Assembly: GCA_006383075.2 (NCBI GenBank)
Contig: SMNH02000014.1
Span: forward strand, 2,169-66,168
Origin: Kordia sp. TARA_039_SRF
GTDB taxonomy: Bacteria; Bacteroidota; Bacteroidia; Flavobacteriales; Flavobacteriaceae
DNA: 64,000 bases
Direction of reading: 5' to 3'
This document shows positions 2,138 through 10,372 of this stretch, piece after piece. The translations under genes were made by a program, and so were the position numbers. Under the pieces are notes generated by a model, which was not told the origin of the DNA, made no database searches, and worked only from the letters and a program-made list of their open reading frames with translations. Position 1 is the first letter of the stretch; each line of letters begins with the position of its first letter.

Positions 2138-2145
2138 TATATTTG
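2138..2145 (+). promoter_or_regulatory. Candidate -7 element TATATTTG for the TPR-AraC gene
   Basis: TATATTTG fits the Bacteroidetes -7 consensus TAnnTTTG. The same eight bases occur before the peptide precursor at 4060-4067. A TTTG lies at 2121-2124, but the 13-base spacing is shorter than the usual 17-23, so the -33 box is doubtful. Confidence 0.4.
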
Positions 2146-2171: not shown

Positions 2172-2215
2172 TTCTATTTTCCGCGAAATTAGAACTGTAT
2201 TCGTGGAATATAGAA
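2172..2215. promoter_or_regulatory. Two tandem palindromic operator-like sites upstream of the TPR-AraC gene
   Basis: Site 1 (2172-2194) is TTCTATTTTC, CGC, GAAATTAGAA. Site 2 (2193-2215) is AACTGTATTC, GTG, GAATATAGAA. Both fit an ideal of TTCTATATTC, three bases, GAATATAGAA. Their centres are 21 bases apart, two turns of the helix, so a bound protein would lie on one face. Both lie downstream of the candidate -7 element, a position that suggests repression or autoregulation. A third, better copy precedes the peptide precursor gene at 3996-4018. The binding protein is inferred, not shown. Confidence 0.55.
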
Positions 2216-2257
2216 GAATTAATTGTATATAAACCGTAAAATATTCCTCAAAAAATA

Positions 2258-3985
2258 ATGTTATTTAAAAAGTATCTTTTTTTTCTTTTCTATTTTTTGT
2301 CAACAATAGTACTGTATCCACAAGAGAATCCTCATTTTAAAATGGATTCATTGGCTAATAAGAGCTTTGATGATTTAAAAAAAGCATTTTATAATTATAA
2401 AGATATAGGACAAATAGAGGCTGCAAAAAAAACAGCTTATTATACTTTAAAGAAGGCAAAAAAAGAAAATAATACTGTGGCAATAGCAAATAGTTATATA
2501 CGATTGTGCCGTATTTTTTCCAAAACTCCTAAGTTAGCGTTAAAGTATATTGATAGTAGTATTGAGGTTTCCACTAAAAACAAGTATACTAAATTGCTCG
2601 CTGAAGGTCATTTTTATAAAGCAAGATGTTATTATTCAAGATTAGATTTTGAGAAATCTTTAAAGTATTATATAAAAGCTAAAGAATATTATGATAGAGT
2701 AGATAACAAGGAAATGTATTATGCTATACAGAATAATATTGGTTTAATAAAGCAGAATGTAAATGCTCATGAAGAAGCACTAAAAATTTTTAAAGAATGC
2801 TACTTGTATGACTTAAGCCTTGGATATGATTCGATTCGAAAGGTAGATCATTTGGCGACTATATCGTCATTATCCCTAGCTTATGTTGAACTCAACAAGT
2901 CTGATTCAGCTACATTAATGAATAGAAAAGGATATAAATTGGCGTCAACAGTTAAAGATTATAATCCATATAAGCCATTGTTTTTTACAAATTTTGAAGG
3001 TTTGAATCAGTATGCGCAAGGAAATTATATCGAATCAAGAGATAGTCTTTTAAAATCAATTCCTTTTTTAAGAGAAAGTAAAGCTAATGCTAATCTATGC
3101 TATGCATACTTTCGATTAGGAAAGATTTCGAATCATTTTTCAGAAAAAGAAAAATCAATTTTTTATTATAAAAAAGTAGATAGTATATTTTTAGAATCAA
3201 AGTTTGTTCTCCCTGAACCTAGAGAAATTTATGAAAGTCTCATTAACTATTACAAAGAAAAAGATGACATAAGAAAGCAATTATATTACACAGAACGTTT
3301 ATTAAATGTTGATAGTGTTCTTACACGTGATTATAAAAAATTAGTTCATACGCTTAATAAAGAATATGATACTCCAGAATTAAAGAGGCAAAAAGAGAAA
3401 TTGATTGTGATCTTAAATAAGAAAGACAAAGGGATTACTTTTCTTATTTTCATTATAGTTTTCATCTCCATAACATCTATCTTAGTAATCAAATTCTTTC
3501 ACTCTAAGAGGAAGCGTAATGAGAAAAAATTTAATCAAATAATTGATAATCTTAAACAAAAAAATAAAGAAAAAGTCGTAAAAATTGATGATAATTCTAA
3601 GAAGAAGAATTCTTTAAATATAAATGAGGATATTATAAATTCAATTTTAGAAAGATTGAGTGATTTTGAAAAAAATGAAGGCTTTTTAGAGCCTAAATTA
3701 AGTTTAGCAAAATTAGCAAAATACATAGAAACAAATAATAAGTATTTATCGAAAATAATAAATACTCATAAATCAAAAACATATAATACATACATTAATG
3801 ATTTAAGAATTAATTATGCAATTGATAGATTACAAAAAGACCATGTTTTTAGAAAATATACCATTAAAGCAATTGCAGCCGATATAGGATATACAAATAC
3901 TGAATCATTTACGATGGCTTTTCAGAAAAAGACAGGTATAACTGTTTCCTTTTTTATAAAAAAGATAAATTCACAACATAAATAG
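2258..3985 (+). CDS. Membrane-anchored TPR-containing AraC-family regulator
   Basis: The 575-residue product begins with a signal-like hydrophobic segment (residues about 2-20), followed by tetratricopeptide-type helical pairs over about residues 30-370. Next come one membrane segment at about 392-412 (ITFLIFIIVFISITSILVIK), a basic and coiled-coil linker, and a C-terminal AraC helix-turn-helix domain (about 470-570, including IAADIGYTNTESFTMAFQKK and TGITVSFF). This layout is common in Flavobacteriia and places the TPR sensor outside the inner membrane and the DNA-binding domain inside. It sits directly upstream of a GG-leader peptide gene and two subtilases on the same strand. Matching palindromes precede both this gene and the precursor, so it is a good candidate regulator of that cassette. 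The ligand is unknown. Confidence 0.88.
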   Translation: MLFKKYLFFLFYFLSTIVLYPQENPHFKMDSLANKSFDDLKKAFYNYKDIGQIEAAKKTAYYTLKKAKKENNTVAIANSYIRLCRIFSKTPKLALKYIDSSIEVSTKNKYTKLLAEGHFYKARCYYSRLDFEKSLKYYIKAKEYYDRVDNKEMYYAIQNNIGLIKQNVNAHEEALKIFKECYLYDLSLGYDSIRKVDHLATISSLSLAYVELNKSDSATLMNRKGYKLASTVKDYNPYKPLFFTNFEGLNQYAQGNYIESRDSLLKSIPFLRESKANANLCYAYFRLGKISNHFSEKEKSIFYYKKVDSIFLESKFVLPEPREIYESLINYYKEKDDIRKQLYYTERLLNVDSVLTRDYKKLVHTLNKEYDTPELKRQKEKLIVILNKKDKGITFLIFIIVFISITSILVIKFFHSKRKRNEKKFNQIIDNLKQKNKEKVVKIDDNSKKKNSLNINEDIINSILERLSDFEKNEGFLEPKLSLAKLAKYIETNNKYLSKIINTHKSKTYNTYINDLRINYAIDRLQKDHVFRKYTIKAIAADIGYTNTESFTMAFQKKTGITVSFFIKKINSQHK

Positions 3986-3995
3986 AAAAAAAATA

Positions 3996-4018
3996 TTCTA
4001 TATTCAGGGAATATGGAA
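3996..4018. promoter_or_regulatory. Palindromic operator-like site upstream of the peptide precursor
   Basis: TTCTATATTC, AGG, GAATATGGAA is a palindrome with 9 of 10 paired positions. It matches the two sites at 2172-2215. Its centre (4007) is 53 bases before the candidate -7 element at 4060, a typical distance for an activator. It begins 11 bases after the stop of the TPR-AraC gene. Confidence 0.55.
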
Positions 4019-4120
4019 AAACAGAAACAAAGTTTTAGTTTTTTTTACAATTACAAAACTATATTTGATCAATTATAAATTTTAAAAGTTCAAAAAATGA
4101 AAAAACAGAAACAAAGTTTT
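4013..4120 (+). repeat. 24-bp direct repeat: upstream copy of the precursor gene's start
   Basis: Bases 4013-4036 match bases 4097-4120, the first eight codons of the peptide precursor, at 23 of 24 positions (ATGRAAAAACAGAAACAAAG then TTTT). The copies are exactly 84 bases apart. The upstream copy could be read as MEKQKQSF before diverging. It looks like a leftover start of a second precursor or the scar of an 84-base duplication. Confidence 0.7.
4060..4067 (+). promoter_or_regulatory. Candidate -7 element TATATTTG for the peptide precursor
   Basis: TATATTTG fits TAnnTTTG and is identical to the element at 2138-2145. It lies 30 bases before the ATG at 4097. A T-rich tract (4039-4046) sits where a -33 box would be, but no clear TTTG is present there. 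Confidence 0.45.
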
Positions 4121-4343: not shown

Positions 4344-6038
4344 ATGTTTTTATCAAGAAAAAAATATTATATATTACTCTTTCTTTTAACGGGTTGTCTT
4401 TTGACTTGTTGTAAAATTCATCAAAATACAATCATAACGAATGATTATTTAAAAAAATTAAAAAGAACAACCAATATAGATTTAAAAGATTGGTATGTTA
4501 AAGATATTTTTGAGGATTCCATAATTGGAATAAGCCTCGAAAAAGCATATAAAAAACTTTTAAAAAATAAAAAATCTGATACTATTATTGTAGCTCTTAT
4601 TGATACTGAATTGGATATAGATCACAAAGATTTAAAAAATCAAATTTGGATTAATGAAGATGAAATTCCTAATAACAGTATTGATGATGACAATAATGGA
4701 TATATAGATGATATTTATGGTTGGAATTTTTTACAAACAACTAAAAAAGATTCTGTTTTATACGCTAATCATTCCTTTATAAGAATCATAAAAAAATATG
4801 ATTCGATTTTTAAAAATAAAGAAGAGAAGCAAGTTTCTGAAAACCATAAGAAAGAATTTAAAGAGTATCTCAGAGCTATTAAGACTTATAAAAAAGAGAA
4901 AAAGGAAATAGAGAATGATATTGCTACCTACAATAGAATAAAAGATAAATACATAAAAGCTGATGAGTTATTAACTAATTATTTCCCTAAAAAAGATTAT
5001 AAAATTCCTCAATTAGATTCCTTATTAAAAAATACAAATGATTCAATACTAAAGATGCGCATTGGGAATATGAAAAATTATTTAAAAAATAATATAAATG
5101 AAAAATGGGTAGATAGAGGAATAAAAGAAGAATATAAAAAACTAAATACATGGCTGAGTTTTACATATAATGATCGACAAAATCAAAAAGATGATGTAGA
5201 TAATCTAAATGATGTTTCGTATGGTAATAATAATGTACAAGGAACTCTAAGAGGAAGTCATGGAACAAAAGTTATGTCAGTTATTGCAGCTACCCGTAAT
5301 AATGGTACAGGAATAAATGGAATAAGTAATTCACTAAAAGTTATGTTCGTGGGCGTTGCTCCTTATGGAAGTGAGCATGACAAAGATATTGCACTGGCCA
5401 TACGATATGCAGTAGATAATGGTGCTAAAATTATCAATATGAGTATTGGTAAAGAGTTTTCGATGCACCCTGATTGGGTAAAAGAAGCTATAATATATGC
5501 TGAAAGTAAAGATGTGCTTATTGTTTCTTCCGCAGGAAATAAGAGTTATAACTTAGGTGTTGAATTCGATTACCCTGACGATTATGACGAAAACGGAGAG
5601 TATTCAAATAACTTTATAAAAGTAGGAGCTAGTTCTTACAAAGCAGACTCAACCATGGTTTGGCTTTCCTCTAATTATAGTAACAAAAATGTAGATATTT
5701 TTGCGCCAGGACACAAAATTTATTGTTTGTCAAGAAATAAAGCTCTTAATTCTTCAGGTACATCATTAGCATCTGCTGTAGTATCTGGCATTGCTTCTTT
5801 AATTCGATCATATTATCCAAACTTATCTGCTATTGAAGTAAAAGAAATTATTCTTGCTTCTGGAATATCTTTCGATGTGGATGTAGTACAACCGTATCCA
5901 TATGGAGAAAAACAACCTGAAGATAAAATACCATTTAGTGAGATGTCCAAATCAGGAAAAATAGTCAACGCCTACAACGCACTTCTCCTAGCAGAAGAAG
6001 TCTCCAAAAAGAAGAAAAAACGTAAAAACAGAAACTAA
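4344..6038 (+). CDS. S8 subtilisin-like serine protease, lipoprotein
   Basis: The 564-residue protein has a lipobox (FLLTGC, Cys18), so it should be anchored in an envelope membrane. The S8 triad is complete: Asp87 in LIDTELDIDH, His306 in GSHGTKV, and Ser474 in SSGTSLASA. The oxyanion-hole Asn lies in SSAGN. About 218 residues separate Asp from His, far more than in classical subtilisins. The insert is lysine/glutamate-rich and helical and resembles the inserts of other Bacteroidetes S8 lipoproteins. The protein ends in a lysine/arginine-rich tail. It follows a GG-leader peptide gene by 40 bases and precedes a membrane protein and a paralogue, so it probably belongs to one cassette. Its target is unknown. 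The precursor peptide is one possibility. Confidence 0.9.
   Translation: MFLSRKKYYILLFLLTGCLLTCCKIHQNTIITNDYLKKLKRTTNIDLKDWYVKDIFEDSIIGISLEKAYKKLLKNKKSDTIIVALIDTELDIDHKDLKNQIWINEDEIPNNSIDDDNNGYIDDIYGWNFLQTTKKDSVLYANHSFIRIIKKYDSIFKNKEEKQVSENHKKEFKEYLRAIKTYKKEKKEIENDIATYNRIKDKYIKADELLTNYFPKKDYKIPQLDSLLKNTNDSILKMRIGNMKNYLKNNINEKWVDRGIKEEYKKLNTWLSFTYNDRQNQKDDVDNLNDVSYGNNNVQGTLRGSHGTKVMSVIAATRNNGTGINGISNSLKVMFVGVAPYGSEHDKDIALAIRYAVDNGAKIINMSIGKEFSMHPDWVKEAIIYAESKDVLIVSSAGNKSYNLGVEFDYPDDYDENGEYSNNFIKVGASSYKADSTMVWLSSNYSNKNVDIFAPGHKIYCLSRNKALNSSGTSLASAVVSGIASLIRSYYPNLSAIEVKEIILASGISFDVDVVQPYPYGEKQPEDKIPFSEMSKSGKIVNAYNALLLAEEVSKKKKKRKNRN
5946..6020 (+). repeat. Shared 3' end of the two S8 genes, copy 1
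   Basis: These 75 bases near the end of the first S8 gene match 8179-8253 in the second at 72 positions, silent sites included. The upstream parts of the two genes are clearly diverged and more AT-rich. The block encodes the segment SKSGKIVNAYNALLLAEE and the start of the lysine-rich tail. Confidence 0.85.
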
Positions 6039-6591: not shown

Positions 6592-8274
6592 GTGAAGTCG
6601 ATTTTATTATATATAGTTCTTTGCTCAGTTATACTAGGTTGCACTAGTTCAAAATCAACCATAAAAGCTTCTCCAAATGTGACTGCTGGCTTTATGAAAA
6701 ATGAAGCCTTAACTACAGAAGAAAAGCAACATTGGCACTTTAAAGATATCTATACAGATTCTATTCCTGGAATAAGTCTCGACAAAGCATATACTACACT
6801 TCTAAAAGGTAAAAAAGGTGATACTATAATAGTAGCAGTTCTTGATATGCGTATTCACAAGAATCATGAAGATATTAAAGATTTTATTTGGACAAACACA
6901 GATGAAATTCCAAATAATGGAATAGATGATGAGCATAATGGTTATATTGATGATATTCATGGTTGGAATTTTCTAGGGAATTCTAAAGGAGAGCAGGCTT
7001 ACCGTGCTAATTTTGAATATGTTAGAATTATTAGAAAGTTCAAGGCAAAGTTTGATGGTAAAAAAAGAGAAGAATTTGAAGGAAAATCTCTTGAAAATTT
7101 TGATGAATATTTAAGGGCAAAAAAAGTTTACAATGAAGACCTAAAATATACAAAGAGAAAATTAAGTTCTTTAAAATATAAACAGATTAGGAAAAATTTT
7201 CTTGAACAAAATATTTTAAAAGAATTACCGAACTCTTCTCTTTCGGTTGATGCACTAAAAAACTTAAAAATAACAGATAAAAAATTAGCTAATAATATTA
7301 AATTACTTATACAGTTAAAAAAGGATAGTGTTAAGGATGCCTTTGATATTGAATTAGAAAAACGTTATCTAGATTTTTATCTAAATGAAGAGTTTAATGA
7401 AAGATTAATTATGGGTGATGACATAAATAACCTTGATGATAAAACCTATGGAAATAACAATGTAACATCAGATAATTCAACATCATCACACACACATGCT
7501 ATAAAAGTTGCAGGTATAATTGCTGCAAATAGAAATAATAAAATAGGTATAAAAGGAATCACTAATCAGGTAAAAATAATGCCTATAGCAATATCTCCTT
7601 ACGGAGATGAACAAGATAAGGATATGGCTTTAGGTATAAGATATGCTGTTGATAATGGTGCTAAAATAATTAATATAAGTTCAAGCAAAAAATTTTCTAT
7701 ACATGAAGAATGGGTTTTTAATGCTTTAAGATATGCCGAAAAAAATGATGTTTTAGTGGTGACTTCTGCAGGAAACGAAGCTGAGAATCTAGATTTTATA
7801 CAGAACTATCCAGATGACACCGAAAACAAAAATTATGAAATTGTAAATAACTTTATAAAAGTGGGAGCTTCAACTCATCAATTGAATGAAAGCTTGATAC
7901 ACTACACTTCCAACTACGGTAAAGAAAGTGTTGATATTTTTGCTCCAGGGAAGAATATTTATACTACGTACCCAAATAATAATTATGATTATAGTAGTGG
8001 AACTTCTTACGCTTCTCCAATCGTCACAGGTGTGGCTGCCTTAATTAGGTCAAACTATCCAAATTTATCCGCTACAGAAGTTAAAGAGATTATTATAAAT
8101 TCTGGAGTAGAAATTAAATGGAGTGTTAGTAAACCTCCAAACACAAACAATAAAGATTTAGTCCCTTTCAGCTCCCTATCCAAATCAGGTAAAATAGTCA
8201 ACGCCTACAACGCACTTCTCCTAGCAGAAGAAATCTCCAAAAAGAAGAAAAAGAAGCGGAAAAAGAAAAAATAA
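6592..8274 (+). CDS. S8 subtilisin-like serine protease, lipoprotein (paralogue)
   Basis: The frame opens with GTG at 6592, chosen because it gives a lipoprotein signal ending in VILGC (Cys17). The 560-residue protein is a paralogue of the S8 lipoprotein at 4344. The triad is present: Asp85 in VLDMRIH, His302 and Ser472 in GTSYASP. The usual His-Gly-Thr has become His-Ala-Ile (THAIKV) and the residue after the catalytic Asp is Met, so activity or specificity may differ. The Asp-His gap is again long (216 residues) and helical. The tail is lysine-rich. The gene ends one base before the convergent stop of the methyltransferase gene, with no terminator visible between them. Confidence 0.88.
   Translation: MKSILLYIVLCSVILGCTSSKSTIKASPNVTAGFMKNEALTTEEKQHWHFKDIYTDSIPGISLDKAYTTLLKGKKGDTIIVAVLDMRIHKNHEDIKDFIWTNTDEIPNNGIDDEHNGYIDDIHGWNFLGNSKGEQAYRANFEYVRIIRKFKAKFDGKKREEFEGKSLENFDEYLRAKKVYNEDLKYTKRKLSSLKYKQIRKNFLEQNILKELPNSSLSVDALKNLKITDKKLANNIKLLIQLKKDSVKDAFDIELEKRYLDFYLNEEFNERLIMGDDINNLDDKTYGNNNVTSDNSTSSHTHAIKVAGIIAANRNNKIGIKGITNQVKIMPIAISPYGDEQDKDMALGIRYAVDNGAKIINISSSKKFSIHEEWVFNALRYAEKNDVLVVTSAGNEAENLDFIQNYPDDTENKNYEIVNNFIKVGASTHQLNESLIHYTSNYGKESVDIFAPGKNIYTTYPNNNYDYSSGTSYASPIVTGVAALIRSNYPNLSATEVKEIIINSGVEIKWSVSKPPNTNNKDLVPFSSLSKSGKIVNAYNALLLAEEISKKKKKKRKKKK
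8179..8253 (+). repeat. Shared 3' end of the two S8 genes, copy 2
   Basis: This is the second copy of the 75-base block described at 5946-6020 (72 of 75 identical). It lies 24-98 bases before the end of the gene. Confidence 0.85.
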
Positions 8275-10001: not shown

Positions 10002-10229
10002 TTAAATTGGACATAAGCTTGAAGGTTCATTCGTCTGACAACCTTTTGTTGGTAATGGATCGCTCGGACATAAAATATCTCTGCTGCCTCCACCTGAAGG
10101 TTCTGGTTGACAAAAGAAACTTGGAATTGGAGTCGTTGGTGTAATTCCACCTTTAATACTGTCCACTGCTGCAAATTTAGAAATCGTTTTTTTACCTAAA
10201 GCTAATTTTGTAAGTCTTTGTTTCTTCAT
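10002..10229 (-). CDS. GG-leader peptide precursor (RiPP-like), 75 aa
   Basis: I place the start at ATG 10229, 93 bases inside the longest frame, because it gives the family leader MKKQRLTKLALGKKTISKF. The GG at residues 27-28 (SIKGG) ends the leader. The 47-residue core is rich in Pro, Ser and Thr and carries four cysteines (FFCQPEP, ILCPSDP, KGCQTNE, SLCPI) spaced 10-14 residues apart. The leader matches the Bacteroidetes class I lanthipeptide-like type (KKTI box). No modifying enzyme of the Lan type is nearby. The flanking same-strand genes encode a SAM methyltransferase and a double ABC ATPase. The gene has its own terminator. Confidence 0.7.
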   Translation of the reverse strand: MKKQRLTKLALGKKTISKFAAVDSIKGGITPTTPIPSFFCQPEPSGGGSRDILCPSDPLPTKGCQTNEPSSLCPI

Positions 10230-10372
10230 GATTTTTCTATTTTTTGTTCGAAGCAAAATTGCATTAATGAAAAATCGTAGGGTAGCGGAAAATAACTGAA
10301 AATTGTATGGGAAATTCACCAAAGATAATTCTCACTAGCAAAGTAGTTGTTGGATGAATTGAAAAATAGCGA

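Follow-up and report, generated by a model that had tools for sequence, protein, structure and literature searches.

Organization of the Locus

The window analyzed here is a stretch of 64,000 nucleotides (64 kb) of a Kordia genome, in which the gene for a TPR-AraC regulator is followed by a cassette of a small precursor peptide, two S8 subtilases and a membrane-type protein (Table 1). The 167-aa membrane-type protein has no Pfam or NCBIfam match up to an E-value of 1. The leader of the peptide scores 11.6 bits against the class I lanthipeptide leader NF038153, below the cut-off of 22, and none of nine peptides from relatives' loci reached an NCBIfam cut-off (0/9). LanB is not part of the cassette cluster; the only Lant_dehydr_N match of the genome lies on contig C1, and the window on C14. 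A second GG-leader Cys-rich precursor is encoded outside the cassette (window 10002-10247, minus strand), and its score of 14.3 bits is likewise below the NF038153 cut-off (22 bits). C39 proteases account for five matches in the genome. One C39 protease gene and the LanB gene are found in a common stretch of about 12 kb (G000:C1:266296-278329), and therefore a class I lanthipeptide-type cluster may exist elsewhere in this genome.

Table 1. Genes, predicted operators and promoter elements of the regulator-peptide-subtilase locus (window positions).
Feature	Position	Strand	Remarks
Candidate -7 box of the regulator's own promoter, TATATTTG	2138..2145	+	45 bases upstream of distal operator centre
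Distal upstream operator (predicted), TTCTATTTTC-cgc-GAAATTAGAA	2172..2194		9/10 pairs
Proximal upstream operator (predicted), AACTGTATTC-gtg-GAATATAGAA	2193..2215		7/10 pairs; centre 21 bases from distal
TPR-AraC regulator, 575 aa	2258..3985	+	Pfam TPR_12 6.5e-08, HTH_18 6.8e-11
HTH1 recognition helix, residues 494-504	3737..3769	+	nearly invariant in clades A-C
HTH2 recognition helix, residues 548-559	3899..3934	+	E549 codon 3902-3904
Cassette operator (predicted), TTCTATATTC-agg-GAATATGGAA	3996..4018		9/10 pairs; begins 11 bases past regulator stop codon
-7 box of peptide promoter, TATATTTG	4060..4067	+	53 bases past operator centre
GG-leader Cys-rich precursor peptide, 68 aa	4097..4303	+	ATG 90 bases past operator centre
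S8 subtilase, lipoprotein-like signal	4344..6038	+	Pfam Peptidase_S8 7.5e-39; same strand as peptide
Membrane-type protein, 167 aa	6041..6544	+	homologues downstream of other regulators; recurrent in such cassettes
Second S8 subtilase, lipoprotein-like, GTG start	6592..8274	+	Pfam Peptidase_S8 1.9e-46

The regulator consists of a signal sequence, TPR helices (residues 37-362), a long helix (372-437) and an AraC domain (457-574), with the signal sequence and the membrane span read from the sequence. An AlphaFold2 model (44 sequences; mean pLDDT 87.2, pTM 0.63) places the two recognition helices at the residues given in Table 1 and shows the long helix, which comprises the membrane span and a coiled coil, with a hydrophobic stretch inside it. 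The C-terminal domain carries the double HTH of the AraC/XylS family (PF12833, 6.8e-11, residues 486-566, above the cut-off). In a Foldseek search of the PDB the best matches were eukaryotic LGN TPR domains, followed by the peptide receptors RapF (4i9c, with an inhibitory peptide; 4.2e-05) and apo NprR (5dbk; 9.4e-05).

Regulators of this type form a large family in Kordia and Aquimarina, and 11 Kordia genomes contain 19-64 homologues each, short forms included. The short paralogues have a length of about 250 aa, and their alignment with the regulator is limited to about residues 346-571, which correspond to the membrane helix and the AraC domain without the TPR part. One of them is encoded left of the window and near the cassette (G000:C14:268-1026, minus strand), and others are found near the cassettes of L053, L054, L055, L057, L060, L061, L074, L087, and L093.

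Palindromes in the Window

The initial annotation described three copies of one palindrome around the regulator gene, and all three are present, each of them imperfect. Compared to TTCTATATTC-N3-GAATATAGAA, the copies beginning at 2172, 2193, and 3996 have 3, 3, and 1 mismatches, respectively. Their geometry is also as first described, with the centres of the upstream pair (2183 and 2204) 21 bases apart before the regulator gene and a second TATATTTG box starting 53 bases past the third centre (4007), the same TATATTTG being found at 2138. This box is not rare, occurring five times on the plus strand of the window. With up to three mismatches allowed, the palindrome pattern occurs at exactly three places in the 64 kb, while shuffled windows hold a mean of 0.01 matches and reached three in 0 of 100 cases. 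These shuffles, together with the in-gene controls of relatives (see below), rule out chance palindromes in AT-rich DNA.

Sites Beside Related Regulators

For Kordia, 60 stretches were collected that contain 79 reading frames of the family, 65 of them longer than 500 aa. A GG-leader peptide frame, recognized by a loose pattern, starts at most 450 bases past the stop codon of 46 of these 65 regulators; the same loose pattern was found in 3/62 control stretches upstream. Among the 56 of the 79 frames listed, genes for S8 lipoproteins and a membrane protein of 166-170 aa often come after the peptide, and clade-B genes at L069, L070, L083, and L085 form tandem regulator-peptide-regulator-peptide arrays. 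Palindromes of the form TTC-N3-GAA with at least 6 of 10 pairs reach 1.67 per kb upstream and 0.98 per kb downstream of the 79 frames, compared to control densities of 0.21 within the genes and 0.17 in the remaining parts of the stretches.

The sites are concentrated in parts of the family tree. Of 65 regulators in the tree, 22 have sites on both sides of the gene, which comprise 7/11 in clade A (including the window regulator), 13/16 in clade B and 2/3 in clade C. A TTCnnnGAA core lies between -30 and +80 of the stop codon in 7/11, 16/16, and 3/3 members of clades A, B, and C, and in 1/35 of the other family members; in clade B the left arm of the downstream operator mostly overlaps the last codons of the regulator. 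No site was found at L058, within clade A. Altogether, a downstream site with the TTC core is missing in 34/65 Kordia regulators, some of which have other palindromes instead. Other subfamilies (L067, L073, L079, L081, and L082; L108, L110, and L111) have other palindromes after the regulator, for example TTGCAATTTATAAATTGCAA and GTGATATTTATAAATATCAC.

In an earlier set of 28 loci from other genera, a GG peptide was found shortly downstream in 7/28, and a search for TTC-N3-GAA only gave two weak downstream matches (6/10 pairs), both more than 100 bases past the stop codon. A non-Kordia test set was gathered afterwards by an alignment-based scan of named genomes (80 loci, 64 of them outside Kordia and mostly from Aquimarina), and it brought in the Aquimarina and MAG loci, in which the sites are clear. 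When spacers of 2 or 3 bases were searched from -30 to +100 of the stop codon, 50/64 non-Kordia regulators had a downstream site, with in-gene controls at 14/768; the numbers in Kordia are 31/65, with controls at 13/390. The spacer length is restricted, as spacer 2 occurs at 32/64 and spacer 3 at 20/64 non-Kordia loci, spacer 4 at one and spacers of 0, 1, 5, and 6 at none, and control searches in six in-gene windows per locus gave 7/384 for spacer 2 and 7/384 for spacer 3. A GG peptide, again by the loose pattern, follows 42/64 of the non-Kordia regulators. In two MAG loci, L144 and L145, the regulator shares 45 and 44% identity with that of the window, the palindrome is a perfect TTCTATTTTC-N3-GAAAATAGAA, and the -7 box follows at 54 and 55, respectively.

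Upstream and downstream sites of one regulator resemble each other. A similarity score of at least 24 was reached by 13/66 pairs from the same locus and 8/778 pairs from different loci, and a score of at least 26 by 6/66 and 0/778. The outer arms of the downstream sites are also more complementary than in shuffled pairings, which were as good in 0/2000 cases for clade B and 1/2000 for clade A; for clade C, with 3 sites, complementarity is within shuffling (325/2000 as good). The arms of the upstream sites exceed shuffling weakly (31, 54, and 92 of 2000 for clades A, B, and C).

Promoter Geometry and the Predicted Direction of Control

The flavobacterial -7 box is described as TAnnTTTG at -12 to -5 (PMC9723704). 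Among 25 Kordia downstream sites, the distance from the centre of the palindrome to such a box is 54 bases in 11, 53 in one (the window), 55 in one and 44, about one helical turn less, in four. Thus 13/25 sites lie at 53-55 and 17/25 at 53-55 or 44, while shuffling gave a mean of 0.12 at 52-56 and at most 2 in 300 shuffles; in the remaining 8/25, among them the site at the peptide promoter of K. algicida L060, the exact box is absent at these distances. Outside Kordia, the box lies at 53-55 in 15/20 spacer-3 sites and at 52-53 in 11/32 spacer-2 sites, the exact box being absent there in 5/20 and 21/32, respectively. The spacing to the box would place the operator near -65, or near -56 one turn closer, which is an activator position. 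Activation of the cassette, as first proposed, fits this geometry.

The upstream sites are arranged differently in the two larger clades. Upstream sites are present in 24 regulators of clades A-C, and in 10 of these, all from clade B, the proximal site lies 55 bases before a TAnnTTTG box, and distal sites of clade B lie at 76, one tandem period further. In clade A, the window, L053, and L056 have a box that precedes the distal site by 45 bases; in an alignment of seven clade-A loci including the window, the box at this place is exact in three, one base off in three and absent in one. The autoregulation of the initial annotation, which left the sign unstated, is compatible with the upstream sites, and the arrangement suggests a sign for each clade. 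As the clade-B sites are located upstream of the box, they would activate their own gene, while the window sites, downstream of the only nearby TAnnTTTG box, would repress it. In summary, the positions suggest that the sites activate the peptide promoter throughout, while their effect on the promoter of the regulator itself would be activation in clade B and repression in clade A. Self-repression in clade A is the weakest step of this promoter reading, because the upstream block also serves a divergent gene and 3/7 loci have the box in exact form. The 2138 box is a candidate only, since the stretch also belongs to the upstream region of the divergent gene, to which this box may belong.

Covariation of the Second HTH With the Outer Arm

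The inner TTC of the sites is constant through site selection, which makes the information content of 2.0 bits at arm bases 8-10 circular. The TTC is also present in most of the better pairs of upstream and downstream sites that were found without the TTC condition. Within clades A-C, the HTH1 helix (T-N-x-K-Y-L-S-K) hardly varies. In HTH2, (N/S)TE(S/T)FT goes with TTCT arms and N(S/Q)ESY with CCC arms, NPEGFSRAFQ mostly with ACnAn arms and NTTEAFSK mostly with GTCTG-like arms. Partial Mantel tests on 81 regulators, with the remaining domain sequence and the N-terminal part as covariates, relate arm bases 1-5 to the HTH2 helix (r=0.338, p=0.0005) and not to HTH1 (r=-0.151, p=0.998). A first, smaller test on 27 Kordia rows gave 0.196 (p 0.008) for HTH2 and -0.01 (p 0.54) for HTH1; these rows were drawn from 28 clade A-C and related rows with L064 left out, and L055, L058, and L061, without a site of the sought form, are outside this count.

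A mutual-information scan of residues 465-572 against arm bases 1-7 (756 pairs, sequence-weighted and APC-corrected) ranks residue 549 and arm base 3 first, with a z-score of 9.2 and 0/2000 permutations as high in a test that ignores descent. The pair S550/base 5 is second (z 6.1) and N547/base 5 third. At the level of half-sites, glutamate at 549 goes with C at base 3 in 86/112, glutamine with A in 18/18, arginine with G in 6/6 and valine or isoleucine with A in 8/8; among rarer residues, glycine goes with T in 2/2, aspartate with C in 9/14 and leucine with A or T. The combinations E-C, Q-A, and R-G are classical residue-base contact preferences. When the HTH2 helix is left out of the tree, the nine Q rows need five changes and the three R rows three, and the downstream sites have A in every Q row and G in every R row. 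Shared descent therefore does not explain the match.

The code is not uniform over the family. The 549/base-3 pair ranks first in the non-Kordia rows (n=50) and in the spacer-3 rows and second in the spacer-2 rows. In Kordia alone (n=31) it is outside the six strongest pairs, with Q-A in 12/12, R-G in 4/4 and E-C in 17/40, and the weakness of E-C is mainly due to clade B, which breaks the rule: by hand count, the 12 clade-B rows with E549 have C at base 3 in 3/24 half-sites, compared to 83/88 outside clade B. Upstream copies follow the code less well (E-C 25/46, Q-A 3/6, R-G 4/4, V-A 0/2). The window regulator agrees with the pattern, having E549 with C3 and S550 with A5. Five paralogues of a single genome (G008; L054, L085_30, L085_37, L088, and L092) have different arms, and may therefore be insulated from each other.

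Distribution of the Palindrome in the Genome and the Genus

With up to three mismatches, the palindrome occurs at five places in this genome, the three of the window, C1:191834 and C1:409741, and the pattern read backwards has no match genome-wide. The genome search proposed in the initial annotation did not reveal a clustering before many GG-leader or S8 genes of this genome; the palindrome is local to this cassette, and a genome-wide regulon was rejected on account of the only two extra places. The copy at C1:191834 was discarded as a functional site, since it falls inside the end of an unrelated coding sequence. The same search in ten other Kordia genomes gave 0-5 places each, several of them in or near unrelated genes, and the backwards control gave none save two in each of two genomes. 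Because of the latter, a few matches at three mismatches are attributable to chance.

The other copy (G000:C1:409741-409763; L003:1501-1523) reads TTCTGTTTTC-cgt-GAATATAGAC; it belongs to the same class of sites and precedes a gene for a sensorless, LytS-like histidine kinase of 218 aa that adjoins rpe. A site of this type is found at one conserved chromosomal place, away from cassettes, in seven Kordia loci. The sensorless kinase frame follows it in 6/7 of these and was not found in L011, and a TAnnTTT[GA] box lies at 65 from the site in six loci and at 67 in one.

Proposed Mechanism and Alternative Explanations

The palindromes are very probably the own operators of the TPR-AraC regulator, through which it would activate the cassette and regulate its own gene, in the window probably negatively. 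The initial annotation had linked palindrome and regulator by inference, and this link is now strongly supported by the same-class sites beside paralogues, the covariation of HTH2 with the arm and the fixed -7 spacing. The comparison directly gives the class of the sites, their location, their spacing and the residue-base covariation, and it is from these that we infer binding. The regulator would be a one-component membrane sensor, with the TPR domain predicted outside the inner membrane and the AraC domain inside. One palindrome would take two AraC domains. HTH1, near-invariant in the near family, presumably contacts the constant inner TTC/GAA, while the variable HTH2 would read the outer arm, with residue 549 directed to base 3 and residue 550 to base 5. 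The distance from arm base 4 to the opposite inner GAA is 10-11 bases, one turn, which would suit one AraC monomer, so that HTH2 of each monomer may sit on one outer arm while its HTH1 reaches the inner core on the far side. From the site at 3996-4018, with its centre near -65, the regulator would activate the operon of GG-leader peptide and subtilases. At 2172-2215 it would repress its own gene; if the promoter is the 2138 box, these sites are part of the transcribed leader.

Whether the TPR-AraC protein is merely the neighbor of operators that belong to another DNA-binding protein has to be considered, as a similar site exists away from cassettes at the conserved place in seven Kordia genomes, and short TM-AraC paralogues are encoded near ten fetched stretches. 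Such a protein could be the short AraC paralogue encoded at C14:268-1026 or some regulator that has the histidine kinase gene as a further target. This is quite improbable, since across 81 regulators the arms follow the HTH2 of the adjacent regulator, with convergent residue-base changes, and no third protein is expected to track a residue in the HTH2 of its neighbor. Even less probable is a function at the RNA level, in which the downstream palindrome would form a hairpin or terminate the regulator mRNA and the upstream copies would form leader hairpins. The downstream copy does begin close behind the stop codon, the usual place of a terminator, and terminator-like hairpins are found there in some loci of other genera. 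However, the arms are AT-rich, the nearest run of at least six T begins at 4039, 21 bases past the end of the copy and not directly behind it, the same element also precedes the regulator, and neither a fixed spacing to TAnnTTTG nor residue-base covariation is expected for a terminator.

With binding by the regulator accepted, its autoregulation in the window could still be positive and start from a promoter without a recognizable TAnnTTTG box, in the manner of clade B with its ten proximal sites at 55 bases before a box. This is rather unlikely in the window, where there is no TAnnTTTG from the upstream sites to 130 bases beyond and where the proximal centre plus 54 lands on the start codon; moreover, the upstream box at 45 bases recurs in the clade-A loci L053 and L056. 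Negative autoregulation from the upstream pair therefore remains the preferred reading for the window.

Possible Peptide Sensing and Comparison With Known Systems

Sensing of a peptide by the regulator is plausible because of the neighboring peptide gene, the likeness of the TPR part to peptide-binding folds and the presence of C39 proteases. On this basis, a system of parallel insulated circuits can be tentatively imagined, in which each TPR-TM-AraC protein senses its own exported GG-leader peptide and activates the corresponding operon via a private operator, with HTH2 using a code of one residue for one base; as a whole, this picture is rather doubtful. If true, Gram-negative bacteria would have an equivalent of RRNPP quorum sensing that spans the membrane, and the density signal of Kordia algicida might be of this kind. 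Independently of peptide sensing, the covariation amounts to a specificity code that is partly readable, the HTH2 helix predicting part of the operator and the operator marking the controlled peptide operon, and the 19-64 regulator homologues of a Kordia genome become assignable in part. A later study on K. algicida describes nutrient control as well, states that quorum sensing could not be excluded, and identifies the algicidal protease as also an S8 enzyme (PMC10565126). The clade-A cassette of regulator, peptide, and S8 protease with CCCTA operators at L060 of K. algicida may be a concrete candidate for this quorum-sensing question, despite its peptide promoter without an exact -7 box.

In the literature searched, neither a description of TPR-AraC regulators of such peptides nor an AraC-family recognition code of this kind was found, and as the coverage mostly excludes subscription papers, the novelty is provisional. 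The regulator resembles the AraC/XylS proteins in its C-terminal double HTH (HTH_18), its sites near promoters and its local control, but its effector part is a TPR array with a membrane helix. AraC operators are usually direct repeats and HTH2 is usually the more conserved part, whereas the operators here are short palindromes, HTH1 is near-invariant and HTH2 appears to carry the specificity. Rap, NprR, PlcR, and Rgg form the RRNPP receptors of peptide quorum sensing, which are likewise characterized by a TPR array in the regulator and a small peptide gene next door. RRNPP receptors are cytoplasmic and their DNA-binding domain, where present, is an N-terminal HTH of the XRE type. In contrast, the regulator described here has an AraC-type domain at the C-terminus, an N-terminal signal-like sequence and a hydrophobic long helix, and its TPR part is predicted outside the membrane.

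ToxR combines a sensor outside and a DNA-binding domain inside the membrane in one chain, an arrangement also predicted here, while the sensor and DNA-binding folds of ToxR and VtrA differ from TPR and AraC folds. Membrane-bound transcription factors of the ToxR/VtrA type are termed co-component systems (PMC9214523), and unlike in those systems, no partner protein is seen at this locus. For Bacteroidales, RiPP clusters are reported, as far as the accessible text goes, with TPR-like genes and regulators as separate genes (PMC10352776). Class I lanthipeptide precursors of Bacteroidetes have an LxLxKx5L leader and a GG end (PMC7268733). The precursor peptide described here shares the leader pattern and the GG end, with LanB and C39 proteases encoded elsewhere in the genome, but instead of a recognized modifying enzyme the cassette contains S8 lipoproteins.
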